From Polytrichum commune (Eukaryota > Streptophyta > Polytrichopsida > Polytrichales > Polytrichaceae), in contig OX485806.1 of the NCBI GenBank assembly GCA_950295325.1, positions 8,868,001 through 8,932,000 of the forward strand: 64,000 nt of DNA, read 5' to 3'. A program made the position numbers and the translations under genes. The stretch's first letter is position 1. Every line of letters starts with the position of its first letter. This document shows positions 3,117 to 44,488 of this stretch, in pieces. The notes beneath the pieces were generated by a model that was not told the origin of the DNA, did not search any database, and saw nothing but the letters and a program-made list of their open reading frames with translations.

Positions 3117-3866
3117 TGTTGAGAACAACATTAAGAAGCACAAATAAGGCACAAATGGAACTAAGAAGTGAAGACAGATCTCAAAACCATCACCGAATGA
3201 AGAAAGCTTGGACACTGGAAGAGGAAGCCGAACACTGGAGAGAAGCTCTCGGCTTCGGGCTTAGGGTATCGACACGGGAATAGGCCTCTTTCCCACGGCC
3301 TTACAAGGAAAACGCGCGGCTTTGGGTGCCGCTACTCACGGCGATAGGGTTCCCAACCCCGGGAATGGGCTCCCAGCGGGTTAGCAAAGGGGATTAACTA
3401 ATTAACATAGGAGACTATTATATGTAAGCATGTTAAGACTTATAAGAGGAATATATAGGGATTTTAGCAAGCATTAGAAAGTATACTTATTAGCATAAGT
3501 AAGTAGGATTTTGATCAAGGATGATTGTGATTTATATACGAAAAGGCATTATGACGGAGTATATAGGAATGTGGCAATCTTTTGAGAACATGATTATGGA
3601 ATGTAAAATGTTAGATATGCATTATGAGCATATAGAACAAGTTAGATTTTACAAACCATTTAGAAATCAATCAATTATGAAGACTTGATTGGATTCTTAA
3701 AAGCATGTAGCTACAACAAAGATATAGTAAAATCTTCATACTACAAACATTAGGGTAGTGAAACGGTTATAACCGTTTAAGATAGGAGTCATCTACGTAT
3801 ATCAAAGATAGCTAGTATCTATGGAAGTGGAAGATAACAACCACTCTTAGTATAGATTTTGGATAG
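3117..3866 (+). repeat. 5' LTR, first part (upstream U3)
   Basis: Matches 34085-34834 of the 3' LTR over its full 750 bp. It is cut at ATAG (3863-3866) by the 14.8-kb TIR element. The break falls about 12 bp upstream of the LTR TATA box, so the upstream U3 is now about 15 kb away from the core promoter. Confidence 0.95.
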
Positions 3867-3894
3867 AACACTATATTCGTTAAATTGAGACTTT
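3867..3894 (+). repeat. Left terminal inverted repeat, 28 bp
   Basis: Begins AACACTATATTCG and is the exact reverse complement of 18626-18653. The sequences diverge at base 29. Confidence 0.95.
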
Positions 3895-4398
3895 CTCTAG
3901 TCTCAAATTAATATATGGATCAAACAACATTCCGTGTTCCGAAACTATATTGCGAACAATCTCAAATATATTATATGTTCTAATATCCCAAATCTATTAT
4001 GTGTGGACATAAGCACATATGGTAGAGCACTCAACACCAACTTCATCAACAAAAACACTTTGGGTAGAGCACTCCAAACTAGTTTCACCCAAGAAACATA
4101 TAAAATGATTTCTATTATTAGCATGGTCAATAAAATATAGACATTGCAACATACAAAGTGCATGCAATAAATGCATTTTTCTTCAATGGAAAATTTAGTC
4201 CCAAACTTAATAAACAAAATGAACTTCACAACTGTATTGAAATATAGTAAATGGATATTCATCCAACCCCAAACAATATAGCATTCGCAAGCTCTACCCA
4301 AACTTTGCCCCAAGTTTGAGGAGCACACATATGAGTAATATATATTTGTCGAATTACATATTACACTATAATCATGCTAACACAATCCTACCAACTTC
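3895..4398. other. Left subterminal region, no gene seen
   Basis: AT-rich DNA. The decamer TAGAGCACTC occurs twice about 45 bp apart (near 4023 and 4066). Short open frames here have no recognisable content. Subterminal short repeats of this kind often bind transposases; that role is inference. Confidence 0.45.
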
Positions 4399-5145
4399 TC
4401 ATTCAACGTGGGTTGCTTCCTCTGCGATCCGAGCAAGGTTGTCTTTTGCAAAAGTTATGTACTTTTGAGGGATGGACACTGATCCACTATGATTTTTCCG
4501 TGGTTTCCATGCTATGAATATGGAATCTGTATCTACCCAAGATGGACCGTGCTCAGAATCCACCTTCCACCGAAAGTGTTGGTTTGTATCCCAGCCTGTA
4601 TAATGCCGAACAACATCTTCATTCCGTGCTGTCGGTCGGTAGTACTCTACTTGTATTTGTCGAAAATGAGGGCTGGAAGTTACAAAATTTGGATTGGACA
4701 AAGCTCTTGCCACCCACACTGGCTTTGCATATGTCTCATCTCCAGGACGCAAAATGAGCATATAACCTTCATAACAATCCACTGCAATGCGGAAAGATGG
4801 TGGGGGACGACTACTAGCAGGCCCCACGTAATGGTCGTCCACATCAAACTCCTCTCGAACCTCTCCATTTCCCAAAAGACTAGCCTCCGAAGCTTGTACA
4901 TTGACACGTGTTTGTGGCCAAAACCCATGCCTTAAAGTAAGGGGTGTATCTTGATGAAGGTTTGCCAAAGCGCCACGAACACGTGTCCAATATTGTATCC
5001 AACTTCCGTAACGAAGCCAACACGATCCACCAACATCCGCTACCCTCAAACTCTCCCAATATTGTATGAAGCCTGATATGCCTTTACAAATGTCCTCCAA
5101 ATTCTTCATGGGTATTGGTTTGCAAGGCTTAGGCTCTCCGTCAGG
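4399..5145 (-). pseudogene. Minus-strand gene fragment, possible BAH-like C-terminal region
   Basis: The open frame reads leftward from the solo LTR border at 5145 to a stop at 4399, about 248 codons belonging to the element. The first residues of the longer frame (up to 5193) lie inside the solo LTR and are not native. The C-terminal half has a BAH/Tudor-like look: a long-range beta pattern with YMLILRPGDETYAKPVWVAR, then IQVEYYRP and a W-rich end (WVDTDSIFIAWKP). That assignment is tentative. The 5' part of the gene is missing because solo LTR copy 1 lacks matching target duplications and appears to mark a deletion. It is divergent from the ParB/methylase gene on the other side of the LTR. 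It could be the C-terminus of a transposase or of a separate cargo protein. Function unknown. Confidence 0.5.
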
Positions 5146-8054
5146 TGTGGTACTTTTGGGCCACCCCCTTTCGAGGGAGCCTAAAAGTATCACACAAGCC
5201 CTTCGGTGAAGGTGGCCTGCATTTGCAGGCGCCCAAGCCGAACCCGGATGATAGGTGTATAACGTGAGTAGTTAGATTTTTAAGGGAGATTAAATATGCG
5301 TCGTAGTACCTCCGGAGGTTGGGCCTTAGTTTTTTACTAGTGTGGCTTTAAACTCCACTAACCAATTTCATATCTAGTTCTAACCTTAACCTACAACCTA
5401 TTCTACGCGCAGACGCACCAGCCTTGAAACCAAGGCAATCCTAATTTGTGAATTGGGATGGTTCTGATACACCCAACCGGGTGTGACTCATACCACCCTA
5501 ACTCAACGAACGGAATAACGACAATTTGATGGACCATTCAATTCTTTCTATTTCTTTATTTAGTTCTATTTAGTTTTCTAAGCGGGGGAACTTGGCCTAA
5601 GTCCCACCCTTCACACAAATTCCTTCTTAATTACTTACTTTTGTTTGCACGTCCTAACTCACTACATTAACATATTAGGCATCACCCCTTACCTCGGGTC
5701 TCTTGCCAACAAGGGTTTACGATTTATTTTGTATGTTTTGATTGTTAAATGTGTTTACACTAGATAGACCACGAAATGCAACTCAATGGGACCAGGGTGA
5801 CGGGCGACCTGTAGGTTCAACCTGTTGCGCAATCTTCATAAATTGGGGCCATTACTCCCAATCTATGGGGCCAACAACATAATAGTGGATTCGCGGGTCA
5901 TTAACCCCACCTTTCCACCAACAACATTCAGAGTGGTCGTGTCGGTGATTAATCCGACTTACCACACACGAAACTTGCTAATAAATGAAGCTACTACCAC
6001 AAAACATACCAAGGGCCCCGAAAACAATGGAGTTGGGTATTCCCTTGGCGGTCAAGTGGTCAAGCCATTTGACCTTACGAGATAGGTGAGTGGGTTTATA
6101 GATGCGTACCTTAGCCGCGCTCCCTCCAACCCTAAATGGAAGGCTAGCATTAGTAAATTTACCTCAATTCTCCTCGGTTGATTTGGGCTCGATGTAGGCC
6201 GAGCCGCTATCTCCTTCCTTGCTCCACTTCCCTAGCGTCGACCTTGCCTCCTTCTTTGTAACTAGTTTGTTAGTAAGCGTACCTTCGTTAACAATTAAAA
6301 TATAAAGTAGTTATTTTGCACTATAATTTAATCCTAAGAATAATATTTATACTTAGTGCACCTAATTATCTTTCCAATGATCTAAAAATCACTTGAATCG
6401 GATAAGAAATGCAAAAGTTATGAGGGTTGGAAGTGTGAGGTCGATTCAACCGACCCTTCCAACCCACCTATCTACCTTCTAACTTCAAAAATTCATAGCA
6501 CCTTCCTTACTACTTGGATCTAGGCTTTCCTTATACCATTGGAAAGCTATGAACAAGCTCTAACTAGAAAAATTATGACATCAGCAGGTTAAGCTAATAA
6601 AAATTCAGCAGACTCCTTGTAACACAGCAGTCAATCAAGAAGACTTAAACTATGTATTTCACCTTCAACAATTCATATCTAATTCAAATCTTATTCAAAT
6701 CAAACGTTCTATATGACCCTGGAGAGATATTAAAAAGATGTATTTGATAAAAATATGTGATTAGAAAGGTAAGCCGAAGTGAACCCAGCAGGTCCTCTGT
6801 AATGCAGCAGTCAACCAAAAGTTCTCAAACTATGTGTCCCATCTTGCATAATTCATATCTGGTTCAAATCATGCTCAAATCAAATGTTCTAAGCCATTTT
6901 GGAAAGCTACACAAAAGTTCTACTTGGGAAAAATATAATTTCTTGGAATTAAAATTCCTATTGGGCTCGCAGGTCTGATCCAGCAGCCGCTACCCACAAG
7001 ACCACCCAGTTTTTTCTACTCCATCTTTGAAAATTCATAACTAATTGTCATCTTAACCAAATCATAAATGGGAAACGGCTATGGATAGCTATAGGAAATA
7101 TCTCTAAGAGAAAAATGATAAGTATCTTGTTCTAGCTTTTGAACTAAGCCTTCAGGGCATTGGCAGATGAGGTCTATAATGCCTCTACTCAAAACTCTAC
7201 CATCCAACCTACCTCTACAAAAGAAGGAATCATTTTGTTGGTGTGTTAATAAACACACAACCTAACTAGGAGAGAGAGTAGAGGAGGTTCTCAAGCCTTT
7301 CTTTTAGACCATTGAGAATACATGCTAAAGGATTTTTTCCTAACTACATTGAAGCAGGGCTTCGTCCAAAAACTAGAGAAAGAGAGAGAGCTACAAGGTG
7401 GAAGGAGGGGTTTTTAAACCCTCTCACAAAAGGGTTGGACCCCTCCTCCACCGGATGCATTTTTCAAACCCTTTCCCGAAATTTTGGCTCGGGGGTTTTC
7501 CTGGTTGAGGTTGCCACCCTCTCGCCGAGGTGGCTCCGACAAAAAACCTTTAGAAATCTTTCTAATTTTTCCGCCATCGAGTTGGCAAGGGGCCAAGTGG
7601 GCAAGGGGGCAAGTGGGCAAGTATCCCCCTTGCTCTCTTTCTTTTTTTTTTCTTCAAAAGTCTTCAAGCCGATTTTATCTTCTTACGTAAAACACCTCCA
7701 ATAGTCTTGTGTGCCTCACACTAACTAATAAACTAACACTTGCTTAGCTAGCATTTACTAGCATTTGCTTAATAGCTAGCATCTACTAATATTTGCTTAG
7801 CTAGCATCTACTAACATTTGCTTAATAGCTAGCATCTACTAATATTTGCTTAGCTAGTTGTTTTTACTAGCTAGCATATTTTTTCTACTTTGCTATCTTC
7901 TAGCACTACTTAGTTTCATTTTGACCTTCCTTCTTCTAGGCTAAATGCTAAATGAACTAATTTTCCCTAAATTCCCTATCAATTCTAACTTTTAATGCTA
8001 ACATTCTAACTAAAAGTGATCCCGCAGAGTGGTGGACCACTCAAAGGGTTCACA
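5146..8054 (+). mobile_element. Solo LTR copy 1 (2909 bp), no matching target duplication
   Basis: Starts TGTGGTAC and ends GGTTCACA (TG...CA). It is nearly identical to copy 3 (38817-41672) and inverted relative to copy 2 (9805-12645). It is about 53 bp longer than copy 3 because of an extra tandem unit of GCTAGCATCTACTAA type near 7750-7850. Flanks are TCAGG on the left and TTTGG on the right, so there is no 5-bp target duplication, unlike copies 2 and 3. Recombination between LTRs of two different insertions, with loss of the DNA between, is the simplest explanation. Short open frames inside it are not genes. Confidence 0.85.
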
Positions 8055-8443
8055 TTTGGGTCGACCGACCCAAACACAGCCCAAACACAGCCCCTTGTTT
8101 GGGTCGCTCGACCCAAACACAAAACAAAGCATCATGTTTGGGCCGAACGACCCAAATATAACACAAAGCATCATGTTTGGGTCGAACGACCCAAACAAAG
8201 TCTTCTAATTATAAATTCATAAAGAAATCATCAATATAAAATTCACATCAACCCAAAATAATAATCAAGGAATGTATCAAGGAAAAGTATCAAGGAATCC
8301 TGCATGTCACAAACAATATAAAATGCAAATCCACCCAATAATCACAACATTCTTATTATCATTACAAATGATGCTGAAATATATAAATACACAATCCACC
8401 TAAACCTATTCATGTCGTAGATGTTTGGGTCGAACGACCGAAA
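8055..8443. repeat. Palindromic-site cluster 1 (five copies)
   Basis: Sites of the form TTTGGGTCG-NN-CGACCCAAA are at 8055-8074 (AC centre), 8098-8117 (CT), 8137-8156 (AA, one arm change), 8176-8195 (AA) and 8424-8443 (AA, one arm change). The first four are about 39-43 bp apart. The cluster lies directly upstream of the AG|ATG boundary of the ParB/methylase gene. The first site abuts solo LTR copy 1. Confidence 0.95.
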
Positions 8444-8470
8444 CTAACCTTGCACATTATTTTCTTACAG

Positions 8471-9796
8471 ATGGCTCCAAAGAAAAGACCCGGTGAAAGG
8501 TGGTTCATGCCTGTGCCGGACATGTTGTGGCAGGAGCACGAAACCCCGCAGGATGACTCCTATTCCCCTAAGGACGGGCTTGTCCTCGCGTGGTCTATAC
8601 AAGTGGTTAAGGGTTCGCAATACAAAATGATTTTTGTTGTGAAGGTTGGGACCGTGGAGAAGCACACATGGGCTACTCTTACGGGGTGGGAGGTGGCATC
8701 GGTTCAGTCTCTTGGAGACTACGTGGATGTCATCCTCGAGAACAACGCTGTCCAGAACGCGCATATGTTTATGCACCAGTTCTCCGAACCCTTTGACGCT
8801 ATCTATGCAAAAGAAACATGTGTAGAACCAGACGTCATAAAACCGGAGTCCATATTCATTGATAACAGTACATCGAACACAAAGGTGTCGAGCAGATTCA
8901 CGAAACTAAAGCATGCAATCAGCGTGCTCAACAAAGCCCTGCAGAGCAAAACCAAGTCTCAGCAACCCGTGAGGCGGAAAGCAACCACAGAGGAAGGAGC
9001 AGGGTCGTCAAGACCTCAATCGGTGAGGAAGCCGCGACCAGTACCGGCTGACTCGCGGAGGACCACTCCCTCCCAAACACCTGCGGATAGCGAGACGCCT
9101 ACACCTTCTGGGAGCCGTCAAACAACTCCATCCAAGAGGGGGAGAGAGTCATCTGTGATGACTGACGAGCCAGTCTCACCGGAGTTGCGTATGCCGAAGC
9201 CCGGCGAAGAGGTGGATGCAGGGGAGCTGCAGAAAATCGTGAACAATTTCACGACGAAATGCTCCCACTGTTTTTTCATGGGCAGGGATTTTAAGTTCGA
9301 CGTGAACATCAGCCAGTGCCATCTAGCGCCACCGGAGAAGTGTGTCCGGGCAAAGGAGGACGCCTACGTTGACTGGATAATCGCGCACATCGTTTGCGAG
9401 CAGTTTAAAGACGACAGGCAAACGATAGTAGTGATGCCACAGGGTCTCAAGAAAATGCCTACACCTGAAATGTGGCCCACAATTCAAAAGGGCGATTTTT
9501 GGCTCATAGACGGCCAGCACAGCGTGGAGGCATCCAAGAAAATCCAACTCATGAATGAGTGGGATGATCCGAACAATCAGAAGGAAAAGCTGAAGGTTTG
9601 GAAGGCACTGGTGGTGTGGTCTGACGACGAGACCAAGCTCAGCGACATCTCCCGGTACTTCAATATGGGAAATAAGAAGAGGGCCTACCAAGCTTCCTGG
9701 ATAAGGAATATTATGGCCTCGCGGGAGGTGTGGGAGTTCTATGGTAGGCATCCCAAGGAGAGGGAGAATGCGAAGGACAAGAATCCCAAATGGGAG
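8471..9796 (+). CDS. ParB/methylase-like gene, exon 1 (ParB/DGQH-like domain)
   Basis: Coding from ATG 8471 to a donor GAG|GTGAGT after 9796 (442 codons, phase 0). Residues about 1-165 are folded-looking with no recognised domain. About 165-235 is a K/R/S/T/P-rich linker. About 255-442 carries a ParB/sulfiredoxin-like signature: an IVVMPQGLKKMP strand, then WLIDGQHSVEASKK with DGQH at residues 347-350, like the ParB (D/E)G-(E/Q)-HR motif, then LKVWKALVVWSDDETK. The ATG follows TTTTCTTACAG, a good splice acceptor, so it may be an internal exon boundary and true 5' exons may have been lost at solo LTR copy 1. ParB-like plus DNA methylase fusions are known in phage and bacterial proteins; finding one in a plant transposon is unusual. 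The ParB call rests on motif reading only. Confidence 0.65.
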
Positions 9797-9804
9797 GTGA
9801 GTAT

Positions 9805-12645
9805 TGTGAACCCTTTGAATGGTCCACCACTCTGCGGGATCACTTTTAGTTAGAATGTTAGCATTAAAAGTTAGAATTGATAGGGAATTTAGGAAAAATT
9901 AGTTCATTTAGCATTTAGCCTAGAAGAAGGAAGGTCAAAATGAAACTAAGTAGTGCTAGAAGATAGCAAAGTAGAAAAAATGTGCTAGCTAGTAAAAACA
10001 ACTAGCTAAGCAAATATTAGTAGATGCTAGTTATTAAGCAAATGTTAGTAGATGCTAGCTAAGCAAGTGTTAGTTTATTAGTTAGTGTGAGGCACACAAG
10101 ACTATTGGAGGTGTTTTACGTAAGAAGATAAAATCGGCTTGAAGACTTTTGAAGACAAAAAAAGAAAGAGAGCAAGGGGGATACTTGCCCACTTGCCCCC
10201 TTGCCAACTCGATGGCGGAAAAATTAGAAAGATTTCTAAAGGTTTTTTGTCGGAGCCACCTCGGCGAGAGGGTGGCAACCTCAACCGGGAAAACCCCCGA
10301 GCCAAAATTTCGGGAAAGGGTTTGAAAAAATGGATCCGGTGGAGGAGGGGTCCAACCCTTTTGTGAGAGGGTTTAAAAACCCCTCCTTCCACCTTGTAGC
10401 TCTCTCTCTTTCTCTAGTTTTTGGGCGAAGCCCTGCTTCAATGTAGTTAGGAAAAAATCCTTTAGCATGTATTCTCAATGGTCTAGAAGAAAGGCTTGAG
10501 AACCTCCTCTACTCTCTCTCTCCTAGTTAGGTTGTGTGTTTATTAACACACCAACAAAATTATTCCTTCTTTTGTAGAGGTAGGTTGGATGGTAGAGTTT
10601 TGAGTAGAGGCATTATAGACCTCATCTGCCAATGCCCTGAAGGCTTAGTTCAAAAGCTAGAACAAGATACTTATCATTTTTCTCTTAGAGAGATTTCATA
10701 TAGCTATCCATAGCCGTTTCCCATTTGTGATTTGGTTGAGATGACAATTAGTTATGGATTTTCAAAGATGGAGTAGAAAAACTGGGTGGTCTTGTGGGTA
10801 GCGGCTGCTGGATCAGACCTGCGAGCCCAATAGAAATTTTAATTCCAAGAAATTATATTTTTCCCAAGTAGAACTTTTGTGTAGCTTTCCAAAATGGCTT
10901 AGAACATTTGATTTGAGCATGATTTGAATTAGATATGAATTGTGCAAGATGGGACACATAGTTTGAGAACTTTTGGTTGACTGCTGCATTACAGAGGACC
11001 TGCTGGGTTCACTTCGGCTTACCTTTCTAATCACATATTTTTATCAAATACATCTTTTTAATATCTCTCCAGGGTCATATAGAACGTTTGATTTGACTAA
11101 GATTTGAATTAGATATGAATTGTTGAAGGCGAGATACATAGTTTAAGCCTTCTTGATTGACTGATGTGTTACAAGGAGTCCGCTGAATTTCTATTAGCTT
11201 AACCTGATGATGTCATAATTTTTCTAGTTAGAGCTTGTTCATAGCTTTCCAATGGTATAAGGAAAGCCTAGATCCAAGTAGTAAGGAATGTGCTATGAAT
11301 TTTTGAAGTTAGAAGGTAGATAGGTGGGTTGGAAGGGTCGGTTGAATCGACCTCACACTTCCAACCCTCATAACTTTTGCATTTCTTATCCGATTAGAGT
11401 GATTTTTAGATCATTGGAAAGATAATTTGGTGCACTAAGTATAAATATTATGCTTAGGATTAAATTACAGGGCAGAATAACACTTTATATTTTAATTGTT
11501 AACTAAGGTACGCTTACTACCAAACTAGTTACAAAGAAGGAGGCAAGGTCGACGCTCGGAAAGTGGAGCAAGGAAGGAGGTAGCGGCTCGGCCTACATCA
11601 AGCCCAAATCAACCGAGGAAAATTGAGGTAAATTAACTAACCTTAAGCCTTCCATTTATGATTGGAGGGAGCACGGCTAAGGTACGCATCTATAAACCCA
11701 CTCACCTATCTCGTAAGGTCAAGTGGCTTGACCACTTGACCGCCAAGGGAGTACCCAATTCCATTGTTTTCGGGGCCCTTGGTATGTTTTGTGGTAGTAG
11801 CTTCATTTATTAGCAAGTTTCGTGTGTGGTAAGTCGGATTAATCACCGACACGACCACTCTGAATGTTGTTGGTGGAAAGGTGGGGTTAATGACCCGCGA
11901 ATCCACTATTATGTTGTTGGCCCCATAGATTGGGAGTAATGGCCCCAATTTATGAAGATTGCGCAACAGGTTGAACCTACAGGTCGCCCGTCACCCTGGT
12001 CCCATTGAGTTGCATTTCGTGGTCTATCCAGTGTAAACACATTTAACAATCAAAACATACAAAATAAATCGTAAACCCTTGTTGGCAAAAGACCCGAGGT
12101 AAGGGGTGATGCCTAATATATTAATGTAGTAAGTTAGGACGTGCAACCAAAAGTAAGTAATTAAGAAGGAATTTGTGTGAAGGGTGGGACTTAGGCCAAG
12201 TTCCCCCGCTTAGAAAACTAAATAGAACTAAATAAAGAAATAGAAAGAATTGAATGGTCCATCAAATTGTCGTTATTCCGTTCGTTGAGTTAGGGTGGTA
12301 TGAGTCACACCCGGTTGGGTGTATCAGAACCATCCCAATTCACAAATTAGGATTGCCTTGGTTTCAAGGCTGGTGCGTCTGCGCGTAGAATAGGTTGTAG
12401 GTTAAGGTTAGAACTAGATATGAAATTGGTTAGTGGAGTTTAAAGCCACACTAGTAAAAAACTAAGGCCTAACCTCCGGAGGTACTACGATGCATATTTA
12501 ATCTCCCTTAAAAATCTAACTACTCACGTTATACACCTATCATCCGGGTTCGGCTTGGGCGCCTGCAAATGCAGGTCACCTTCACCGAAGGGCTTGTGTG
12601 ATACTTTTAGGCTTCCTCGAAAGGGGGTGGCCCAAAAGTACCACA
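9805..12645 (-). mobile_element. Solo LTR copy 2 (2841 bp), inverted, in intron 1
   Basis: Reverse complement of the same LTR family: on the plus strand it starts TGTGAACC and ends GTACCACA. The perfect 5-bp target duplication AGTAT is at 9800-9804 and 12646-12650. The left duplication is the end of the donor sequence GTGAGTAT, so insertion kept the splice donor intact. It carries more point differences from copies 1 and 3 than those two show to each other, so it is probably older. Confidence 0.93.
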
Positions 12646-12652
12646 AGTATTG

Positions 12653-12811
12653 TTTAGGTCGACCGACCCAAACTCATGATGCAGCCTTGTTTATTTAGTT
12701 TGGGTCGACCGATCCAAACTCCTGATGCAGCTAGTTTATTTAGTTTGGGTCGATCGACCCAAACAATTGTTGCAGTCTTGTGTTTTTTTAGTTTTGGTCG
12801 ATCGACCCAAA
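12653..12811. repeat. Palindromic-site cluster 2 (four copies, in intron 1)
   Basis: Sites at 12653-12672 (AC centre, one arm change), 12699-12718 (AC, one change), 12744-12763 (AT, perfect) and 12792-12811 (AT, one change). Spacing is 45-48 bp. The cluster lies between the LTR and the acceptor of intron 1. Confidence 0.95.
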
Positions 12812-12902
12812 CTGTTGTTGCAGATGTTGGTCATGATATGGGTTGGAAATCACATGTACATATCTAACACGCATTCAAATGTTCTGTTTTGTGGACGTGC
12901 AG

Positions 12903-14234
12903 GATTTCAAATACCAAATGATCAACAAATTCTCCTCCATTGATAATTCGAGCCACAAGCAGAAGAAATACAGCGACCTCAAGGGGGAGATTTACTTGAT
13001 TACAACATCTGACTCAGTTTGGAGGAAGTGGAAAACCGTGTTTGAAAAGCACGAGACGGGGGATTTGATCGACCCTGACACTGGCATTTTCTTCAGCCAA
13101 ACCTCGCGCTTCAAGCAGATGAAGCCTCTCGTGAGAGAGTTCTTTAGAACTCTTCAAGGGCTGTCAGAGACGGAGGTGGAGAAGGCGGCATCTCACATCT
13201 TGCACGTGGCACCCACGGCAAAGAGGTGTTGGGTGCACCCGAAGATTGTCTTCCAAAAGCCCAAATCCTTCGTTCCTTCATGCTACACCATGAAGGAATG
13301 GACGGATAACAGGAAAAAGAAGACGACTATCGTGCAGGAGCTGCATAAACTAGTGCCAGAGAGGAATATTGTCGTGGACGGCGAGGTCCATGAGGCTAAC
13401 TAGAGAGCATTCAAAGCTGAATATAAGTTCACCAGTGCCTCCATGGCGGCTCTAATAAGGGAAGCGGGGGACGACTTCTTGCGGGCCAAGATGGTGAAGG
13501 GTGGGAAGAACCGGGCGCTTCTCGATCACACAGCGCGTGCGTTCTCGAACTTCATCAAGGAGAAGAAGATTGTCCAGTTTGAAGGGGAAGCGTACTTCAA
13601 CCTTGTCACCGCCGACCCGTTGAAAATTCAGGGCTGGCCAGGTCAAGACGCCAGAATGGTGATAAGGACGAAAGCAAGGGACCGCTTTCCTTTTGGGATG
13701 ATTGATTTCAGGAATATTCCTGGAAGCTCATTTGAGGGCACCATGAGCACCCTCTTCTATGACCCCTTCCTATCTAAGTTCGTCGATTATGCAAGCCCTA
13801 AGTTCAGGGAGGTAGATATCTGGCTTTGGATAGTCGAGGATAGGAGGGCGGAGCAGGTGTACGAGCTTGTCCGGAAACTGCAGCCGGAGTATGCAGTCTC
13901 CAAGTCTCACTACATCGCCGCACCGGCGGAGGGGGCTTACACGACGTTGAGGGACAAGAAGACCAAGTTCGTCAACGTCTTGTGTTTGTACTTCGTGTAC
14001 AAAGCGGAGTTGCTGAAGGTGCCGAACCACCCTATATCCCGGATGGACAAACTCTTCCAAGTTCCAGAAGGGTTGGGTGCCAACAAGTGCCTCTACGACG
14101 AGGCTAAATACGCGAACTATCCTTTAGATGAGCTGCGGATGGAATTTTACGTGAGAATGATGAGGACGCTGACGAGGAGAGGGGATTGCATCTTCAACGT
14201 CTTCGGAGGCTCTAAACCTATCTATGCTGCCATG
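12903..14234 (+). CDS. ParB/methylase-like gene, exon 2 (methyltransferase-like region, one in-frame stop)
   Basis: 444 codons between acceptor GTGCAG|GATTTC and donor ATG|GTAAGC, phase 0 at both ends. A TAG at 13401-13403 interrupts an otherwise continuous frame (VHEAN*RAFKAEY), so this copy is inactive unless the stop is read through or avoided. The last 70 residues resemble the C-terminal part of beta-class N4/N6 DNA methyltransferases: YPLDELRMEFYVRMMRTLT, then GDCIFNVFGGSKPIYAAM, matching 'KP-x-EL...LI...T-x-x-GD-x-(V/I)-(L/F)-(D/N)-x-F-x-GS...AA'. The Gly-x-Gly of the SAM loop is altered (FGGSK) and no clear DPPY motif is visible upstream, so catalysis may be lost or divergent. The window between (IWLWIVEDRRAEQVYELVRK...FVNVLCLYFVYKAE) fits the expected middle of such a fold. 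Homology inferred by eye. Confidence 0.6.
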
Positions 14235-14390
14235 GTAAGCGACTTTCTATAACTCGTGCGCAGTTTGGGTCGATCGACCCAAACTAGGCTCTTTGTTGGT
14301 TTGGGTCGATCGACCCAAACTACACATTGTACTTGGTCTTGTTTATGTCCCTCGCCTAATTCTAATGTCTATATAACTTGGATTGTGCAG
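14235..14390 (+). other. Intron 2 of the ParB/methylase-like gene (156 bp)
   Basis: Donor ATG|GTAAGC and acceptor GATTGTGCAG|ATG. It contains palindromic sites at 14264-14283 and 14300-14319, both with AT centre, perfect, 36 bp apart. Removal joins IYAAM to MSGLSIYSYIED in phase 0, restoring a methyltransferase-like helix-strand-acid pattern across the junction. Confidence 0.75.
14264..14319. repeat. Palindromic-site cluster 3 (two copies, in intron 2)
   Basis: 14264-14283 and 14300-14319, both exact TTTGGGTCGATCGACCCAAA, a perfect 20-bp palindrome. They occupy about a quarter of a 156-bp intron. Confidence 0.97.
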
Positions 14391-15887
14391 ATGTCGGGGC
14401 TGAGTATATACTCCTACATAGAGGATGGCGATCTGCCATTTTACAGGACGCAGAGATCGCTGGCGAAGAAGATGGACATCCTCGATTGGATCCCGGGTAG
14501 CTACGTCGACGAGGTTGTTCAGGGGGGCGAAAACCCTCTTGATAGGGTGAGGCGGATCAACCCGGAAGAAATGGCCATGAGGGCCACAACCCAAGTACCC
14601 GAACCTCTTGTCGGGTTGCATCCGGGCAATCCGTCCCGCACAGAAGGTGGCGATGTCGAGGAGGAGGAGGAAGAAGAGGAGCACGGGGAGGCGGAGAAGG
14701 AAGGCGACGTGGAGGAAGGGGCAACGGGCTTCACTCAAGAATCCGAAGCCCCTCAACGGAAGAAGGCGATGCGGGCGGCAACCCCGCAGAGTAAGCTCGT
14801 GCCCGTCCTGACGGTGGACGATGCACGGGACATGTACTCCAGGAACGCGACCGCCACGTTCAGGGAGAGGAGGAAGATGAAGGGGAAGAAGTTGTATGGT
14901 GACTACTCCGTGGAGGAGACCATTGCCATAAGCAGCGAGGATGACGATGACATTGAGCTCGCCAAACGGCTAAGATCAGATCCCCCGTCCCCGACAGCGT
15001 TCGCTGGCATGGTTAGGGTGAAGCCCGAGGTCCTGACTGTGGAGGAGGCGAACGAGAAGATGAGGAGGGACGAGGAGCAGCGAGTCCGCCTGCAGAAGGC
15101 TGCCGCGGAGGAACCCTCAATGCGGAACGAGGTAGCAGAGCTAAGGGCTCTCCTGTTGGAGCAGGAGCGACAGAGGGCGATGGCCCAACCTCCATCCCAC
15201 GCCGAATTGATATCACAAGTGATACAAGGAATGTGGGCGCAAGGTTTGGTGGTGGCTCCCTCCAGCTCCTTCCCGCACTTGCCCCCCGGCTTCCCTGCGC
15301 AGAGCATCCCTCAGCAGCCTATGCCGCAATCGTCTTTCAGCTTCCAGCACTTGATGCGGCCCCACCAAGTTCCGTACGCGCCGGTCCAGCAAGTGGATGA
15401 CCCCAACATCTGGCGCGTATCTGGAGCTTCCTCCCCTTTGGGCCCTCCACCACTTCGGCCCCCCATAGTCATGGCGCCCCCTCACCAATCGGACGACCCC
15501 AGGATGTTTGGGTCGACCGACCCAAACCCACCATCCACTGGAGTGTCCGAAGGGCCCTCTCCAGATGCAGGACAGTTTGGGTCGGGCGACCCAAATCCCG
15601 TTGCAGCGCAATCCTCCCTTGACCAACATGGGTGTCAACTAGACATGGCCATGCTAGATGTTGAAGGCCTGCAAGGGCCTGGTGATACCTCTACTCCTAA
15701 CCAAATCGATGAACCCATGCATGATGCACATGCGGAGATTGGTTTAGGACAAGGGCCTGATGCCGATCGTTTGCAGGAGAAGGTTCCTGACGTCGTCGGA
15801 GAAGGCGGTGGCGAGAGAGGCGGGGCAGCGGGGACGGTGGAGGCTTCCACATCGTCGAGACATGACCAGGGCGAGGTAATACATTGA
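14391..15887 (+). CDS. ParB/methylase-like gene, exon 3 (end of fold plus disordered tail)
   Basis: 498 codons then TGA. The first 40 residues (GLSIYSYIEDGDLPFYRTQRS) look like the strand and acidic residue that follow the SAM-binding loop in DNA methyltransferases ('G-R-x-x-(I/V)-x-x-E-x-D...Y...A..R'). The rest is low complexity: an acidic block of 8 Glu, basic segments, a predicted helix with heptad-like spacing around residues 215-265 (ELRALLLEQERQRA), then a long P/Q/M-rich tail. Two palindromic sites lie in frame and are translated FGSTDPN (15507-15526) and FGSGDPN (15576-15595). Codon use is GC-rich compared with the neighbouring retroelements. The stop is followed within 12 bp by another palindromic site. 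Confidence 0.65.
   Translation: MSGLSIYSYIEDGDLPFYRTQRSLAKKMDILDWIPGSYVDEVVQGGENPLDRVRRINPEEMAMRATTQVPEPLVGLHPGNPSRTEGGDVEEEEEEEEHGEAEKEGDVEEGATGFTQESEAPQRKKAMRAATPQSKLVPVLTVDDARDMYSRNATATFRERRKMKGKKLYGDYSVEETIAISSEDDDDIELAKRLRSDPPSPTAFAGMVRVKPEVLTVEEANEKMRRDEEQRVRLQKAAAEEPSMRNEVAELRALLLEQERQRAMAQPPSHAELISQVIQGMWAQGLVVAPSSSFPHLPPGFPAQSIPQQPMPQSSFSFQHLMRPHQVPYAPVQQVDDPNIWRVSGASSPLGPPPLRPPIVMAPPHQSDDPRMFGSTDPNPPSTGVSEGPSPDAGQFGSGDPNPVAAQSSLDQHGCQLDMAMLDVEGLQGPGDTSTPNQIDEPMHDAHAEIGLGQGPDADRLQEKVPDVVGEGGGERGGAAGTVEASTSSRHDQGEVIH
15507..15595. repeat. Palindromic sites inside the coding exon (two copies)
   Basis: 15507-15526 (AC centre) and 15576-15595 (GG centre). Both are in the reading frame of exon 3 and give near-identical heptapeptides, FGSTDPN and FGSGDPN. 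Confidence 0.95.
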
Positions 15888-15898
15888 GCCCTCCCCAG

Positions 15899-15918
15899 TT
15901 TGGGTCGACCGACCCAAA
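15899..15918. repeat. Palindromic site just after the ParB/methylase stop codon
   Basis: Exact TTTGGGTCG-AC-CGACCCAAA, 12 bp past the TGA at 15885-15887. This is the last good copy; a degenerate relative is near 18157-18175. Confidence 0.95.
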
Positions 15919-16375
15919 CTTCCTGGGTCATTGTCTTGTTGGCGTGGTCGTGTCCCCCTTGCTAGGAGGAAATGCACACCCCCTGCCCCCCCCCCCCCAT
16001 GCTCTACACTTGCTCCCCCTCCCCCCAACGTGCCCCCCCCGCGATCCCCTTCGTCTCACCTGCACTCGACTACGCTCGACCTTGGCGGCGCGCAACCAAT
16101 TTTGTAGATGTAGAATTAGGATAGTGTGAATGCCCTCGTTCACCGCGGTCCCCCCCCCCCCCAATCAAATTGTACATAGAGATTTGTAAAAATAAAATTA
16201 TTATTTTTGGCACCCATATGTTTGCATCCGTGTCCCAATGTATATTGTTCGCCTTGTATGTTTTTGTTGCCACCAATGGTCCAATTCTTCTTGTGTTTGC
16301 ACAAAATTTCCGTTCTGCTTGAGATGGACATAGCATAACATAGTCCTCGCCGCCTTCTCTCGCTCGTCGCCGCAG
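15919..16375. other. Gap between cargo genes, C-rich tracts
   Basis: No gene seen. Poly-C runs occur near 15990 and 16146. The end (CTCGTCGCCGCAG at 16363-16375) is a plausible splice acceptor for the next exon, so part of this gap may be the 5' UTR intron or upstream exon of the FCP1-like gene. Confidence 0.4.
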
Positions 16376-17188
16376 GGTTCGGAGCATAGCGTCGCGGCTC
16401 CCCACCGATCCTCTCCGAGGAGTGTGGAGGACAGCGCGGTGGTCCCCCCGATTTTGCCCTCGCCACCTTCGCCTCCCAAGACCCGGTTCCTCGTGCTAGA
16501 CCTCAACGGGGTCCTTGTCCAGTGCGTGCATTGTCCGAGGGTCCCAACGGTCCCTTTCTGCAAGCCCGAGGACGCCAACTACGATGGTCCCCCCGCGTAC
16601 ATCAAAAGCAAGCTAGTGTACCTCCGCCCGTGGCTTCGGCGCTTCCTGCAGGTCGCCCTATCCAAATGGTGGGTGATCATTTGGAGCTCCATGAAGTCCG
16701 AGAATACCCAGGCCGTCGTGGAGTTCATCTTCAAGGGACTCCAACCCCCGTGCTTGGTCCTAGGACAGGATTCTTGTAGAACGTTATACACCCCCGAGGG
16801 CAGGGTTGTGAAGAAGCCCAACAACCCCGCCGTAAACCAGTTTCTTAAGGTCTTGAAGCCAGTCGTATGGGACCAGCGTCCGACCATGGTCGGCTGTCCC
16901 TACGACGTTCGCCCCACCCGTGACAACACGTTGATGGTGGACGACAGCGCTTCCAAAAACATTTTGAACCCGACCTCGAACTTCATAGTTTGCCCCACGT
17001 GGACGGTCGAGAAGGTCCGAGACCGCTTTTTGTTAGACCTACTTAAGTACATTCAAACGCTCGTGGGGAGCGGACTACCCGTGCCCCGGTTCCTTAGTTG
17101 TAATCCGATAGGCGAAAGATACATGGATCCGAAGGACTATATGTACAGAGAGTTGTACGCTCACGCGAAATATAATAAATTCATTTGA
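16376..17188 (+). CDS. FCP1/NLI-interacting-factor-like HAD phosphatase, main exon
   Basis: An open frame from a possible acceptor at 16375|16376 to TGA at 17186-17188 (270 codons; the catalytic frame is certain from about 16424). It has an FCP1-homology HAD fold: FLVLDLNGVL (motif I, D42 and N44), then LVYLRPWLRRFL and VIIWSSMKSENTQAVVEFIF (motif II WSS), then a basic KKPNNPAVNQFLKVL segment and NTLMVDDSASKNILNP (motif III, D189-D190). Canonical FCP1/SCP enzymes have D-x-D-x-T/V in motif I; here the second Asp is Asn, a change I believe also occurs in plant FCP1-like proteins, so activity is uncertain. Normal substrates of the family are phospho-Ser sites such as the RNA polymerase II C-terminal domain. 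It lies about 500 bp after the ParB/methylase gene on the same strand within the TIR element, so it is mobile cargo. Confidence 0.75.
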   Translation, partial: GSEHSVAAPHRSSPRSVEDSAVVPPILPSPPSPPKTRFLVLDLNGVLVQCVHCPRVPTVPFCKPEDANYDGPPAYIKSKLVYLRPWLRRFLQVALSKWWVIIWSSMKSENTQAVVEFIFKGLQPPCLVLGQDSCRTLYTPEGRVVKKPNNPAVNQFLKVLKPVVWDQRPTMVGCPYDVRPTRDNTLMVDDSASKNILNPTSNFIVCPTWTVEKVRDRFLLDLLKYIQTLVGSGLPVPRFLSCNPIGERYMDPKDYMYRELYAHAKYNKFI

Positions 17189-17307
17189 GATACTACATGG
17201 TGTGCCATTGTGTGTGATATATTATGCCTGAATTGTATATCGATTTTCACATGCTCCCCCCTCCCCCCCTCCCCTTGGGTTTTGTTTTGTTTCCTTTTTT
17301 GCGCCAG

Positions 17308-17661
17308 CGTTTGGAGCCCTCGATTGAGATCGTCAGCGAATCAAACTTGGGGAGCTTCTTCTACGAGACCGTCTACGATGCCGCGTCCACCATCGACTAC
17401 TCCAAGGAGCCTATCGACGCCGGCGTCGTCGATAGCCCCCCACCCAAGCAAATCTTCCGGCCATCTCCGTCCCCGTCGCCGCTCAAGGGCATAAATCGCA
17501 AATGTGTCCGGACGTCCCCCTCTCGGCCCGGCGGCAGTATTACACCTCAACGGCGTCTGCGAATGGACGCTCGGCCCACGAAGAGTGGCACCCTTCCTAT
17601 CCCTTTGCGGGACGCCTTGCCCCTCCTCGCCAACTCCGACGGGAACGCCCCCGGTGACAAG
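17308..17661 (+). CDS. Downstream exon following the FCP1-like frame
   Basis: 118 codons between acceptor TTTTTGCGCCAG (ends 17307) and donor AAG|GTGAAC, phase 0. Begins RLEPSIEIVSESNLGSFFYETVYD and becomes P/S/R-rich. I did not find a phase-0 donor at the end of the preceding FCP1-like exon, so its link to that gene is likely from order and spacing but not proven. No domain recognised. Confidence 0.5.
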
Positions 17662-17797
17662 GTGAACCCCCCCCCCCTCCAAAAAAACATGGTTAACCAC
17701 GCATTACAATCATCCCGCACTTCGAAAATGAACGTGTGACACGTTTGGGTCTTCCTCCCTTAACTAACACGTGTGTTCTTGCATTCACGCGTTGCAG

Positions 17798-18115
17798 GTT
17801 GCTCCCGCCCGTAAACCTATGCGGGATGATCCGTCCGTCGAGTTGGAGCGTTTCTACTCCATGACCAGAAATGCAAGACAGTCCACTTCATCGTATTCGA
17901 ATTCTTCGTCGTATAATTCGGGCGGCCGACGGAATCCAAAATGTGTTATTGTTGGCTGTCACCCCAAGAATGGCTATAGTCGCGGGGCGGAGATTTTCAG
18001 GAATGTTGAAGCAATGCGAGCAAAAGAAGCCGCAGCAAAAGAAAAAGAGGCAAAAGAAAAAAAAGCAAAAGAAAATGAAGTAAAAGAAAAAGAGGTAGTC
18101 TCCGAGGCTAGATAG
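17798..18115 (+). CDS. Terminal exon, Ser-rich then K/E-rich tail
   Basis: Acceptor GCGTTGCAG|GTTGCTCCC joins in phase 0 to the exon ending at 17661 (…GDK|VAPARKP). 105 codons then TAG at 18113-18115. A Ser/Tyr-rich stretch is followed by CVIVGCHPKNGYSRGAEIF and then an A/K/E repeat (AKEKEAKEKKAKE), probably helical. It ends the FCP1-side transcription unit. No function assigned. Confidence 0.55.
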   Translation, partial: VAPARKPMRDDPSVELERFYSMTRNARQSTSSYSNSSSYNSGGRRNPKCVIVGCHPKNGYSRGAEIFRNVEAMRAKEAAAKEKEAKEKKAKENEVKEKEVVSEAR

Positions 18116-18256
18116 GCCATAGTAGGCGTAGGGTTGTGGGCCATAGGCAAGAACATTTTGGGTCGCACTATCCAATGGATGTGTGGTGTTAGCATGCTAT
18201 GCATTTTACATGCCACACTTTGTATGTTTTTTTTGCAATAATATAAGTGTCACATG

Positions 18257-18505
18257 ATTTCCCCTTCCATATGGTCTAAGGTTTGGATTGCCCTACCTAA
18301 ACCATCACAAATATGAGTTTGGAATATTTTGTATGTTATATTATATTGGTTCACATATTTCCCCTTCAATATGATCTATGGTTTGGATTGCCCTACCTAA
18401 ACCATATTCATACAAGTTTTTGTGCGATAATATGAATGTTTTAAGATTTCCCCTTCAACTTGGCCTAAGGTTTGGATTGCCCACCCTAAACAATCCCAAA
18501 TATGA
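18257..18505 (+). repeat. Right subterminal direct repeats, about 60 bp, three copies
   Basis: Copies start at about 18257, 18357 and 18446. Each reads ATTTCCCCTTC then GGTTTGGATTGCCC, then a C-rich step to TAAAC-A-ATC/ATT. They lie 150-400 bp inside the right TIR and are likely transposase-binding or structural subterminal repeats. Confidence 0.8.
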
Positions 18506-18625
18506 GTTATTAATGGGGTTCTTGTTCTAAACACCCGCTTCAAAGTGTTCGCATCTTACAACTTTCTCCAATATGTGTTTCATTTATCCTTGTTCTTATT
18601 TTTGTGAATGTCTCAAAATGCCCAA

Positions 18626-18653
18626 AAAGTCTCAATTTAACGAATATAGTGTT
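18626..18653 (-). repeat. Right terminal inverted repeat, 28 bp
   Basis: Exact inverse of 3867-3894, followed by the duplicated ATAG at 18654-18657. Confidence 0.95.
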
Positions 18654-18668
18654 ATAGGGAGAAAAGAC

Positions 18669-34084: not shown

Positions 34085-36315
34085 TGTTGAGAACAACATT
34101 AAGAAGCACAAATAAGGCACAAATGGAACTAAGAAGTGAAGACAGATCTCAAAACCATCACCGAATGAAGAAAGCTTGGACACTGGAAGAGGAAGCCGAA
34201 CACTGGAGAGAAGCTCTCGGCTTCGGGCTTAGGGTATCGACACGGGAATAGGCCTCTTTCCCACGGCCTTACAAGGAAAACGCGCGGCTTTGGGTGCCGC
34301 TACTCACGGCGATAGGGTTCCCAACCCCGGGAATGGGCTCCCAGCGGGTTAGCAAAGGGGATTAACTAATTAACATAGGAGACTATTATATGTAAGCATG
34401 TTAAGACTTATAAGAGGAATATATAGGGATTTTAGCAAGCATTAGAAAGTATACTTATTAGCATAAGTAAGTAGGATTTTGATCAAGGATGATTGTGATT
34501 TATATACGAAAAGGCATTATGACGGAGTATATAGGAATGTGGCAATCTTTTGAGAACATGATTATGGAATGTAAAATGTTAGATATGCATTATGAGCATA
34601 TAGAACAAGTTAGATTTTACAAACCATTTAGAAATCAATCAATTATGAAGACTTGATTGGATTCTTAAAAGCATGTAGCTACAACAAAGATATAGTAAAA
34701 TCTTCATACTACAAACATTAGGGTAGTGAAACGGTTATAACCGTTTAAGATAGGAGTCATCTACGTATATCAAAGATAGCTAGTATCTATGGAAGTGGAA
34801 GATAACAACCACTCTTAGTATAGATTTTGGATAGGGAGAAAAGACTATATAAGGGAAGCAAATTAGGAGACTATCACCTCATTTTCTACACAACGAAGTT
34901 ATCACAAATTTGAGTGTCAAAAACACTTGAGTTTCTTTGTATCTCTCCTCTCGGAGCTCTTTTGCAATACAATATCTTTTCCACAAATGTGTGTGACCTT
35001 TTTCTTTCTCTTTCTCAAGTCGAACTACGAGTTGTCAATTGGTACTTGTGACTCAAGAGATTATTAAACGAGAGAAGAGTAGGTGCTTTAAGAAAGAACT
35101 CAAAGTATTAGTGCGAGGGTGAGAACAAAGCGCTCAAGAAGAGTTGGAGTATCAATGGAACTTTGAGAGTAGTTGTTGTGAGTAGTAACGACAATTTGAC
35201 TTGAACGTCGGAATTACGATTGACTCTCTAAAGTGGAACTTATCATTGAACTCCTCAAAAGGGAATTATAAATATACATGTGATTGAATGATTGAAGAAT
35301 TATATGCATGTTTAAAGCAAAACCACTTAACGATTACAAACTCCTTCAAAAGAGGAGGAGCTTATTATTGAAAATTACATAATTGACTTATAAGTATTAT
35401 ACATATTATACTACATATTGATTGTTGAACTTGTGATTGACAAGAATGATGAAGACATTAATTCACATCAAAGTTTGAATACATATGAATGAAGTAATAT
35501 TGATATAAGATAATCTACTTACTACAATTGTTATTGAACTTCTTTTAAAATACTTTGTGAGTTGTTGGATGTCATTACAATTTGAAGGATTATTTATTAA
35601 AGAGAAGATCTCTCTCTCTCTCTTGAGCAAAACTCAAGAGAGATAGGTTTACTTCTCGTCATCAAGAAACACTTTGTAGTAAAAGTGCTTTCTCTCTTAA
35701 GATACTTTGTGAGTTGTTGGATGTCATTACAAGTAAAGGATTAACTATTGAAGAGAAGAGTTCTCTCTCTTGAGAAAAACTCAAGAGAGTTATAATTACT
35801 ATCGTCATCAAGAAACACTTTGAAGTTAAACGTGACATTGCAAAACAATCAACGATGTGTTCATGAAATTTCAAACTACTATATATATATATGTCAAGTT
35901 ACAATATTATAAGTAGTAACACTTGAGCTTAAAAAGGAAGACTCAAGAATATTAGATCTTCCTCATCGTTATAAGATTATTATCAATTGTGTAATTGATG
36001 TGTATGAACTACAAAACTTAATGATTCATAGAACTTATTGAAACTATATGTTATTGTTACACCTCTTGAAGCTTTCTTAAATCTAAAGGTTCTTATTGTC
36101 AATGATGCCTTACATTGAGAACAAGAACTAAGATAATGAGATTGTGTTCACTCCGATAATATATTCATATCATAAGGAGAAGAGAGGAGTTATTAATTCG
36201 GGAACCGAGCATATTGATGAGGCACGGTAGTTCTCAAGCGAATATAAATTTACGTGATGAGCATCGTGAGTCTTCTTAGCTAATTTTGCAAAGGAACGAC
36301 CCACGGCGTCCATCA
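34085..36315 (+). repeat. 3' LTR (2231 bp), intact
   Basis: Starts TGTTGAGAAC and ends GTCCATCA, followed by the target duplication CTTTT (36316-36320). TATA at 34846-34852. It serves as the undisturbed reference that proves the TIR-element insertion in the 5' LTR. Confidence 0.97.
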
Positions 36316-36516
36316 CTTTTGTATTCCTCTAATACAAACATCTACGCTGCCCTACAACCACAATACACCTCTTATGCAAAAACATATATACCATCAAAAA
36401 ACAAAGAAACCCGACCACACCCTAGTATCATATACACACCTACAACAAAGTGCACACTCTATAATACTAGATATCATCATACCAAGCATGATATCCTACA
36501 ATACCCAAAATACCAT

Positions 36517-37866
36517 ATGAAACACAAGTACAATCACCTTACTCTATACACACACAAAGAAAATACTCAAACGATATACTACACGCATCCAAAATGCAAA
36601 CCCCATCCAAACTCCATATTGCACCCAAAATATAGACCTCAACAAAAATACAAACTTCATAATACACGTAAAACCTTACCAAAAATTAACATAAAGTTTA
36701 AGCCTACGGACAAACAAAAGAAACAAACAAACATAACCAAAGCACACATCCAAAATATAAAACACACATATACAAAACCAAAACCATATCAAACACAAAA
36801 GACAATAAGAAAACATACAAACACACACCATATCACTACAAATACAACAACCCACAATATCACCCCACCCCTTTCAAAAAATCCCCTAAAACACCAAAAC
36901 ATAAAAACACAAAACATAATCCACGACAACCACCTAAGACGGGCTTGGCCTACCGGCCTCGCCCAAAATCAAAAAAACAAAATAAAAAACAAAAAAACAA
37001 AAAAATACAAAACTACACATACCAAACAAACACAAAAAAGAACCACCGAACACCCTAGCCACATAACAAACCTAGACACTAAAATAAATAAAAATAAGAA
37101 ACAACAATACACAACACACAAAGAACGTAATAACCTCCTCATAATCCAAACATTTTCCTTACACTTACTAATACTACGAAGCGGGGACATTGAAACCAAC
37201 CCGGGACCCATGCCTAACATCCTACAAACACACCCAAACACACACAAAAATAGATGTAAAAAATACTTTATAGAATGCACAATCAAATTACAACCTGAAT
37301 ACCAACATCTAGCAAAACAATTCTCCCCTATCATAAACCTAACACATCCAAAACACCACGAAGCAATTATAAACTACCCATACCTATCAAGATACATCTA
37401 CAGAAACCAACATCACCCACCACCACGCATACTATACGCACTAATTACCACAATTAGCCCAGTAATAGAAACATGCAACCATCTATTAATACAAACCCCA
37501 GAACCTGATTGGACAACCACAGTTCTATAACGCATGACCTCACTCCAAAACCCACCCGAAAGACACATCACAACCACGCACCCATACATACAATTCTTAC
37601 AAACAAATCAAGACATCATCAACCCACCCAAAACCATTCACAAAAAACTATATAACTTCATCAAACAAAATAATACACCCCTAAATATACAGATAATAAT
37701 AGACAAATTTCCCTTTCTACCAGAAGAATTACTTACAGAAGATTTAAAATGCAAAGACCCGCTACATGAATACTCCCACCCCCCGCCACTACCCGACATA
37801 CCCACGTTGCGCCCCCAAGAAAACCAAACAACAAATCACAACACACACCTAATTACCAAAAAATAA
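36517..37866 (+). pseudogene. LINE A ORF1 with internal 2A motif
   Basis: ATG 36517 (MKHKYNHLTL), same start as copy C at 2501. It is very basic, with HPKCKPH/HPKYRPQ units and long K/N/T/H-rich stretches, so likely RNA-binding. At 37177-37209 it reads R-S-G-D-I-E-T-N-P-G-P after a hydrophobic run (LLIIQTFSLHLLIL), the arrangement seen at 2A ribosome-skipping sites near the N-terminus of several LINE ORFs. TAA at 37528-37530 interrupts; the same register then continues (MTSLQNPPERH) to 37866. If 2A works, the basic N-terminal part would be released as its own protein and the following part would start with Pro. Confidence 0.75.
37177..37209 (+). other. 2A-type ribosome-skipping motif (D-I-E-T-N-P-G-P)
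   Basis: Fits the 2A consensus D-(V/I)-E-x-N-P-G-P exactly, with the usual S-G before it and a Leu/Ile-rich stretch upstream. Skipping would occur between the final Gly and Pro (37206/37207). Activity not tested. Confidence 0.85.
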
Positions 37867-38579: not shown

Positions 38580-38816
38580 CACCCATCAAGATCCCTTAAA
38601 AATAAATATATAATAAGAAATCACAACATCCTACCTCACACACCGCCTGCCCCCGTACACCCCCCTAACCTCCCCAACCCCCATCTCCCCCCAACAACAT
38701 GCTTAAAAACCCCCGACAATTCTCCATACACAAAATACTCGATAACAAACAAAAACAATCTAATGACCACAATGGAATAAAAAGAACAGTCACGTCATAC
38801 CTATGTCAATGGACCA

Positions 38817-41672: not shown

Positions 41673-41677
41673 GACCA

Positions 41678-44275: not shown

Positions 44276-44488
44276 ACATCACCATGGGTAAATGGCGAGG
44301 TAAAGAGAATCCAACATGGCAAGGGGGCCGGAGTAAATGGAATCCTACGTGTATAATAATCCCAGATGACAAAGAAATTGACAGAACTCTATTAATTGTA
44401 TGACCGAATCAAGGTGCCCTATATGACACCCAAATTAATAGAATTTCGTCACATTTTTGTCAAATAGGTCATATAAACTCTTGTAGTG

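Follow-up and report, generated by a model that had tools for sequence, protein, structure and literature searches.

Clustered 22-bp palindromes around a ParB/methylase-like gene of a giant Polytrichum commune DNA transposon are candidate sites for self-recognition

Introduction

Giant DNA transposons of algae can carry accessory genes that join a ParB-like to a methyltransferase-like domain. In Ectocarpus, the 21.5-kb transposon Sola1-1_Ec32 contains a gene for a 1104-amino-acid protein with ParB-like and N4C/N6A methyltransferase parts, transposons of green and red algae are cited as encoding similar proteins (Iyer et al. 2011; Petroll et al. 2025), and a proposal is that proteins of this type act on the transposon that encodes them, binding and modifying it (PMC12477816). 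The same report describes algal giant transposons with nested insertions and with missing or broken transposases (PMC12477816). Here, we describe a DNA transposon from Polytrichum commune, found in a 64,000-nucleotide stretch of contig OX485806.1 (positions 8,868,001 to 8,932,000 of the forward strand; hereafter, the window), that holds 14 near-identical palindromic sites clustered around a long gene (gene 1) with ParB- and methylase-like motifs.

Sequence-specific self-recognition has been worked out for other transposons. In Arabidopsis, VANC proteins bind short tandem motifs in the introns, intergenic regions, and terminal regions of their own VANDAL element and cause it to lose methylation (PMC5735166; PMC10398659); the VANC21 motif is the 9-bp YAGTATTAY. 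Activation of Spm by TnpA likewise correlates with demethylation, and MURA is named alongside it (PMC10398659). Capture of methyltransferases is also known from retrotransposons (PMC5890265).

The Polytrichum commune element shares several of these features. Like the algal ParB-methyltransferase transposons, it is a DNA transposon of giant size that encodes a long accessory protein with motifs of both kinds, and gene 1 lies, as do the genes of that accessory class, inside a DNA transposon, as judged by termini, target duplication, and empty site. It also has nested insertions and no recognized transposase, as reported for algal giant transposons (PMC12477816). Unlike in the algal accessory genes, as far as these are described there, the domains lack support from family profiles, and a gene for an FCP1-like phosphatase adjoins gene 1 or is fused to it. 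The palindromic sites further set the element apart, since the parts of PMC12477816 that deal with these proteins name no target sequence. Among the best matches listed in the open-licence literature, we found no target sequence for a transposon ParB-methyltransferase protein; Iyer et al. (2011) and Petroll et al. (2025) might describe such targets.

As in VANDAL/VANC, the motifs are short, clustered in tandem, and situated in non-coding parts, introns included, by the predicted gene structure; in contrast to the 9-bp VANC21 motif, the unit here is a 22-bp palindrome. No VANC domain was matched by Pfam in the element pieces scanned, and we take the present transposon, by its termini, to be a different kind of element from VANDAL. 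We regard VANC as the closest worked example for self-recognition. The target duplication (ATAG) is 4 bp long, as is that of Sola elements. As in Spm/En, the termini contain CACTA. TnpA sites are short and subterminal, Spm/En duplicates 3 bp of target, and EnSpm/CACTA elements end in CACTR, whereas the present element ends in AACACTA, is flanked by the 4-bp ATAG, and has its best sites in the interior.

Results and Discussion

A conserved 22-bp palindrome recurs in six clusters around gene 1

To locate the palindromic sites, we searched the whole window with the 20-bp sequence TTTGGGTCGNNCGACCCAAA, allowing up to 3 mismatches. The search returned 15 matches, comprising all 14 sites listed in an initial annotation of this DNA, each at its reported position, and a 15th with 3 mismatches at position 18157; shuffled sequence gave a mean of 0.02 matches and a maximum of 1 (100 shuffles). 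The arms are perfect in nine of the 14 sites and carry a single mismatch in the other five (8137, 8424, 12653, 12699, and 12792). Aligning the 14 sites showed that the unit is 22 bp rather than 20 bp, GTTTGGGTCG-AN-CGACCCAAAC, with one extra base on either side (G in 13 and C in 12 of the 14 sites). Fourteen of the 18 arm columns are invariant. The annotation had described conserved arms around a variable centre, and this description holds, with the refinement that column 11 is free and column 10 is an A in 12 of the 14 sites.

The sites fall into six clusters (8055-8176, 8424, 12653-12792, 14264-14300, 15507-15576, and 15899; Table 1), and comparison between clusters is informative. Over the 77 between-cluster pairs, the arms are 96.2% identical, and the 15-bp flanks are 22.1% and 26.1% identical, against 25.1% for random 15-mers. 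Pairs within a cluster (n = 14) have similar arms (96%) and flanks that are 45% and 51% identical; even there, the spacers are less conserved than the arms. Arms that stay 96% identical between clusters with random flanks point to a constraint on the letters themselves rather than to plain duplication. On the same grounds, we rejected a microsatellite origin, for which the annotation had expected arms no more conserved than spacers: the arms are kept across clusters whose flanks are unrelated.

The information content of the 22-mer is ~35 bits, which would in principle suffice to distinguish one family in a genome of a gigabase. Outside the 14 sites, the arm TTTGGGTCG was found at two places, 18157 in the element and 50383 in the remainder of the window. 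All 28 arm CpGs are intact, a sparing that is not significant alone because the arm substitutions number just five. Within-cluster spacings of 36-48 bp showed no fixed helical phase by eye. Taken together, conserved arms, a free centre, clustering, and confinement to the element within this window look like the targets of a dimeric protein, as the annotation had proposed.

Two other identities for the palindrome were considered. It was absent from all viral contigs searched, and a single prokaryote contig contained it, once, in a search from which records close to the window's own genome were possibly excluded. This outcome does not point to a site common among microbes, and we rejected a known viral or bacterial site. 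The 2-bp centre resembles that of serine-recombinase crossover sites; this candidate was also rejected, as no recombinase was matched among the element open reading frames (ORFs) scanned with Pfam.

Most sites lie in predicted non-coding DNA

The annotation had placed the sites within the ParB/methylase gene. More exactly, most of them lie beside its coding sequence, that is, upstream, in predicted introns, and at the 3' end, and two lie in frame. The predicted non-coding DNA of the gene-1 stretch holds 12 of the 14 sites (P ~2e-6 by site and 0.004 by cluster, for stretches that we chose and the gene structure that we predicted). In each predicted intron, the first site is near the donor, at 10 bp, 29 bp, and, for a third intron that is doubtful, 23 bp.

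The two in-frame sites (15507 and 15576) share a reading frame and encode FGS[TG]DPN. By the gene's own codon use, the probability that five of the FGS[TG]DPN codons would match the palindrome in one copy is 0.002, so that the repetition at the coding sites is in the letters and not in the peptide alone. Third-position GC drops from 0.73 to 0.48 over the final 381 bases of gene 1, making the coding status of the stretch that holds both sites less sure.

Diverged relatives occur at both ends of the transposon

We then scanned the window for weaker relatives, defined by at most 5 mismatches in 20 to the 22-mer consensus. Six further relatives were found (4059, 17744, 18157, 18282, 18382, and 18471); all six are within the transposon, and none occurs in either solo long terminal repeat (LTR) or in the 49 kb of this window outside the transposon. 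This confinement of weaker relatives to the transposon, both subterminal regions included, is new here. About four of the six are independent, because three form a tandem array. For the right-end group, that is, this array plus 18157, as many relatives were seen in 0 of 2000 dinucleotide shuffles; the left subterminal relative and 17744 were reached more often (Table 1). The confinement to the gene claimed in the annotation thus holds where the arms have one mismatch or none and does not extend to these relatives. Similarly, the reported absence of sites elsewhere applies to the solo LTRs and the flanking DNA but not to the left arm (4059) or, by a weak match, to the FCP1-like region (17744).

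Half-sites resembling GTTTGGGTAGAGC are present in the left arm at 4058 and, inverted, at 4291, and half-sites GTTTAGGTAGGGC are present at the right end at 18290 and 18390. The scan for half-sites used GTTTRGGTAGRGC, which was designed from matches already seen, and was excluded from any estimate of significance because it was built from the matches themselves. This pattern suggests a family of sites spanning the element, with its best matches near gene 1 and more diverged members towards either end.

Gene 1 resembles ParB/methylase proteins at the level of motifs

Gene 1 was modelled as three exons by splice consensus (Table 1). An in-frame stop at 13401-13403 indicates that this copy is broken or mis-modelled. 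The ParB/methylase label given in the annotation traces to short motif-like strings: DGQHSVEASKK at 9509, DPF at 13761, and GDCIFNVFGGS around 14202. Family profiles did not bear it out. Pfam gave no ParB, ParA, or methylase match to the gene-1 pieces, and none for cut-out cores at E values up to 10, a search limited by HMMER filters that drop most weak matches. The one hint of DNA binding was HTH_70 in the piece 12906-13400, just before the in-frame stop; this match is below threshold (E = 0.072; score 13.7 bits, cut-off 27) and one of three sub-threshold Pfam matches to that piece (LutB_C, HTH_70, and DurN; E = 0.06-0.13). In PHROGs and NCBIfam, the gene-1 pieces matched only families that are unrelated or unknown, at E = 0.08-0.32. 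Sequences of solved structures gave none for exon A, and one match at E = 0.85 in a further search; tblastn against phage records yielded nothing useful for exon A or the FCP1-like part, and neither did a search for related viral loci with two gene-1 pieces.

We also built a profile from 14 viral cores, which were selected for a ParB/sulfiredoxin-type motif without a check against Pfam. This profile ranked the gene-1 exon 3rd of 301 (the exon and 300 shuffles), no better than shuffles. At DGQHSVEASKK, hhalign aligned 19 columns with a probability of 73%; given the whole exon, it aligned 22 columns at 47%. The ParB/sulfiredoxin-type superfamily has a conserved active-site arginine (PMC5512222). 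By our own placement of this residue, it is a serine in the gene-1 motif. Active methylases carry DPPY and FxGxG, and with DPF and FGGS in their place, the methylase-like part of gene 1 may be inactive.

Palindromes in clusters next to a gene that has a ParB-like motif do recall bacterial ParB-parS, the analogy drawn in the annotation. Unlike in ParB-parS, there is no ParB profile match, the motif is without its arginine, and no ParA was found among the element ORFs scanned, namely the longer ones outside the solo LTRs. The parS palindrome also differs from the present one. We rejected the parS reading on the Pfam result and on a profile score no better than that of shuffles. Gene 1 has a motif-level resemblance to ParB/methylase proteins and is possibly a degenerate member of that group. 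Because accessory genes combining ParB and methyltransferase parts have been published from algal transposons (PMC12477816), the annotation could yet prove correct in its motif-based label.

Downstream of gene 1 lies a gene for an FCP1/NIF-like phosphatase (Table 1). Its first motif is, in our reading, DLNG, and NCBIfam and PHROGs gave weak HAD-phosphatase matches below cut-off. The donor at 15876 and the acceptor at 16376 are phase-compatible, and by this splice model the phosphatase may be the 3' part of gene 1, giving one fused protein.

The palindromes may serve the element in recognizing itself

On balance, the evidence tips slightly towards the palindromes being self-recognition sites of the transposon, bound by a protein that the element encodes. 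An element-encoded protein, most likely the product of gene 1, would dock as a dimer on every 22-bp palindrome, with GTTTGGGTCG read by each of the two subunits. Where such dimers cluster, upstream of the gene, in its introns, and at the 3' end, they would mark the element's own non-coding DNA, and this marking would either keep the element's DNA open against host silencing or modify it. The binding protein would perhaps set its own dose through the sites, and the diverged subterminal copies would perhaps help to bring the transposon ends together. If the palindrome is bound by the element's own product, it would add a further sequence-specific system of anti-silencing or self-modification to those of VANC and TnpA.

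A narrower proposal, which we hold tentatively and think rather doubtful, is that an accessory protein of the ParB-methyltransferase type has the 22-bp palindrome as its cognate target. This bacterial-derived protein would modify or open its own element alone and would possibly be coupled to a CTD-type (C-terminal domain) phosphatase of the same transcript. If true, this would be a eukaryotic transposon with its own addressed epigenetic immunity. Either way, a 22-bp palindrome of high information content, in 14 copies beside a ParB-methyltransferase-looking gene, offers a concrete sequence for binding or methylome experiments.

Several observations weigh against self-recognition. In both four-site clusters, the units repeat in tandem, with periods of 39 and 45 bp and partly shared spacers; the two coding sites (15507 and 15576) break a purely non-coding rule; and conservation was judged within a single element copy. 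Palindromes with shuffled arms also spread widely in their numbers of matches at up to 5 mismatches (mean 0.63, largest 18; 300 controls), and such controls had at least one subterminal match in 145 of 5000 cases and at least five in 3 of 5000. The subterminal relatives match by just 75-80%, and their binder may be another protein. As for gene 1, its in-frame stop means that the sites in this copy may be relics, Pfam recognized no DNA-binding domain in it, and two single-sequence structure predictions had a pLDDT (predicted local distance difference test) of 35, too low to be informative.

The diverged palindromes in both subterminal regions, in an element that is a transposon with inverted termini, would also suit a transposase or TnpA-like protein. 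The sites would then be bound not by the gene 1 product but by the transposase, here missing, for synapsis of the ends and repression of transcription. Transposase sites are usually subterminal, whereas the best palindromes sit in the interior near gene 1, with ~2.7 to 6.0 kb separating them from the closer terminus in the present state of the element, and the subterminal copies are the weakest matches; we consider this explanation unlikely. A small palindromic repeat that spread neutrally, or was duplicated in tandem, and has no function would account for the two tandem arrays and for the alike spacers within clusters (flanks 45% and 51% identical). We regard this account as very improbable given the arms that are 96% identical over six clusters with unrelated flanks, the same letters at coding and non-coding sites, and the lack of sites in the nested LTRs and in the rest of the window.

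The palindromes could instead act in RNA, each site folding in the transcript to a stem of 8-9 bp with a GNNC loop and a role in splicing or RNA binding. Such a role would fit the first site of each predicted intron being near the donor (10 and 29 bp, and 23 bp in the doubtful third intron), and the A-first centre in 12 of the 14 sites is an asymmetry that a DNA dimer need not show. Across 11 distinct sequences, none of the 9 pairs shows a compensatory change, the 5-18 pair is broken in 3 of those 11, pairing is no better than in shuffles, and transcription may start downstream of the first four sites. Because compensatory change is lacking, RNA hairpins are a weaker account than self-recognition; we rejected them as the principal explanation and give them little credence. 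Similarly improbable, in our view, is an enhancer array for a host transcription factor that the element exploits. Upstream and intronic clusters are in the usual places for enhancers; however, ~35 bits over 22 bp exceeds what a host transcription factor usually reads, and TTTGGGTCG occurs outside the 14 sites just once in the element and once in the remaining window.

The transposon sits in a recently invaded retrotransposon

The transposon that holds all 14 sites is flanked by the duplication ATAG (3863-3866 and 18654-18657), and its empty site is found in the other LTR copy of the Gypsy-type element that it invaded (34831-34834). This Gypsy-type element spans 3117-36315, is flanked by the duplication CTTTT, and has Pfam matches to gag, protease, reverse transcriptase, and integrase; its LTRs are 2231 bp long, the 5' one split by the transposon and the other intact at 34085-36315. 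The LTR pair shows 1 difference in 2231 positions, so the transposon arrived recently.

Table 1. Positions of the palindromic sites, genes, and repeats of the transposon, numbered from the first letter of the window
Feature	Positions	Strand	Remarks
DNA transposon with all 14 sites	3867..18653		14,787 bp; 28-bp terminal inverted repeats; 4-bp duplication
Left terminal inverted repeat	3867..3894	+	starts AACACTATATTCG
Left subterminal relative	4058..4079		5/20 mismatches; as many in 8/2000 shuffles of the left arm
Solo LTR	5146..8054	+	flanks unmatched (TCAGG left, TTTGG right); abuts site 8055
Upstream cluster	8054..8196		sites 8055, 8098, 8137, 8176; period 39
Single site 8424	8423..8444		27 bp ahead of the predicted start codon; possible 5' untranslated region intron
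Gene 1	8471..15887	+	predicted exons 8471-9796, 12903-14234, 14391-15887
Solo LTR	9805..12645	-	inserted in predicted intron 1; duplication AGTAT
Predicted intron 1 cluster	12652..12812		sites 12653, 12699, 12744, 12792; period 45
Predicted intron 2 pair	14263..14320		sites 14264, 14300
Two coding sites	15506..15596		15507, 15576; within open reading frame near the C terminus; same frame, FGS[TG]DPN
Site 15899	15898..15919		directly past the stop codon; alternatively, within a possible third intron with its donor at 15876
FCP1/NIF-like phosphatase gene	16376..18112	+	Pfam NIF, E = 8.8e-14 for 16424-17188
Weak relative, FCP1-like gene region	17743..17764		5/20 mismatches; as many in 43/2000 shuffles; possibly chance
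Relative 18157	18156..18177		nine-base left arm intact; right arm degenerate
Right subterminal array of three diverged palindromes	18281..18492		18282, 18382, 18471
Right terminal inverted repeat	18626..18653	-	28 bp

Two solo LTRs are nested in the transposon; they are copies of one 2.9-kb sequence, inverted relative to each other. The unmatched flanks of the copy at 5146-8054 suggest a recombination deletion inside the transposon, which may have removed the transposase; no Sola transposase was recognized among the element ORFs scanned with Pfam. An ORF of ~248 amino acids on the reverse strand (4399-5145) is cut by this solo LTR at 5145 and could be a remnant of a transposase or of an accessory gene; Pfam gave it no match above cut-off (TraI_2 at E = 0.19). 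Beyond the Gypsy-type element, positions 36300-54200 hold LINE-like (long interspersed nuclear element) elements with a reverse transcriptase match and repeated segments of ~1.4-1.5 kb that are 67-69% alike. A protein kinase gene, plant-like in look, occupies a single open frame at 61783-63474.

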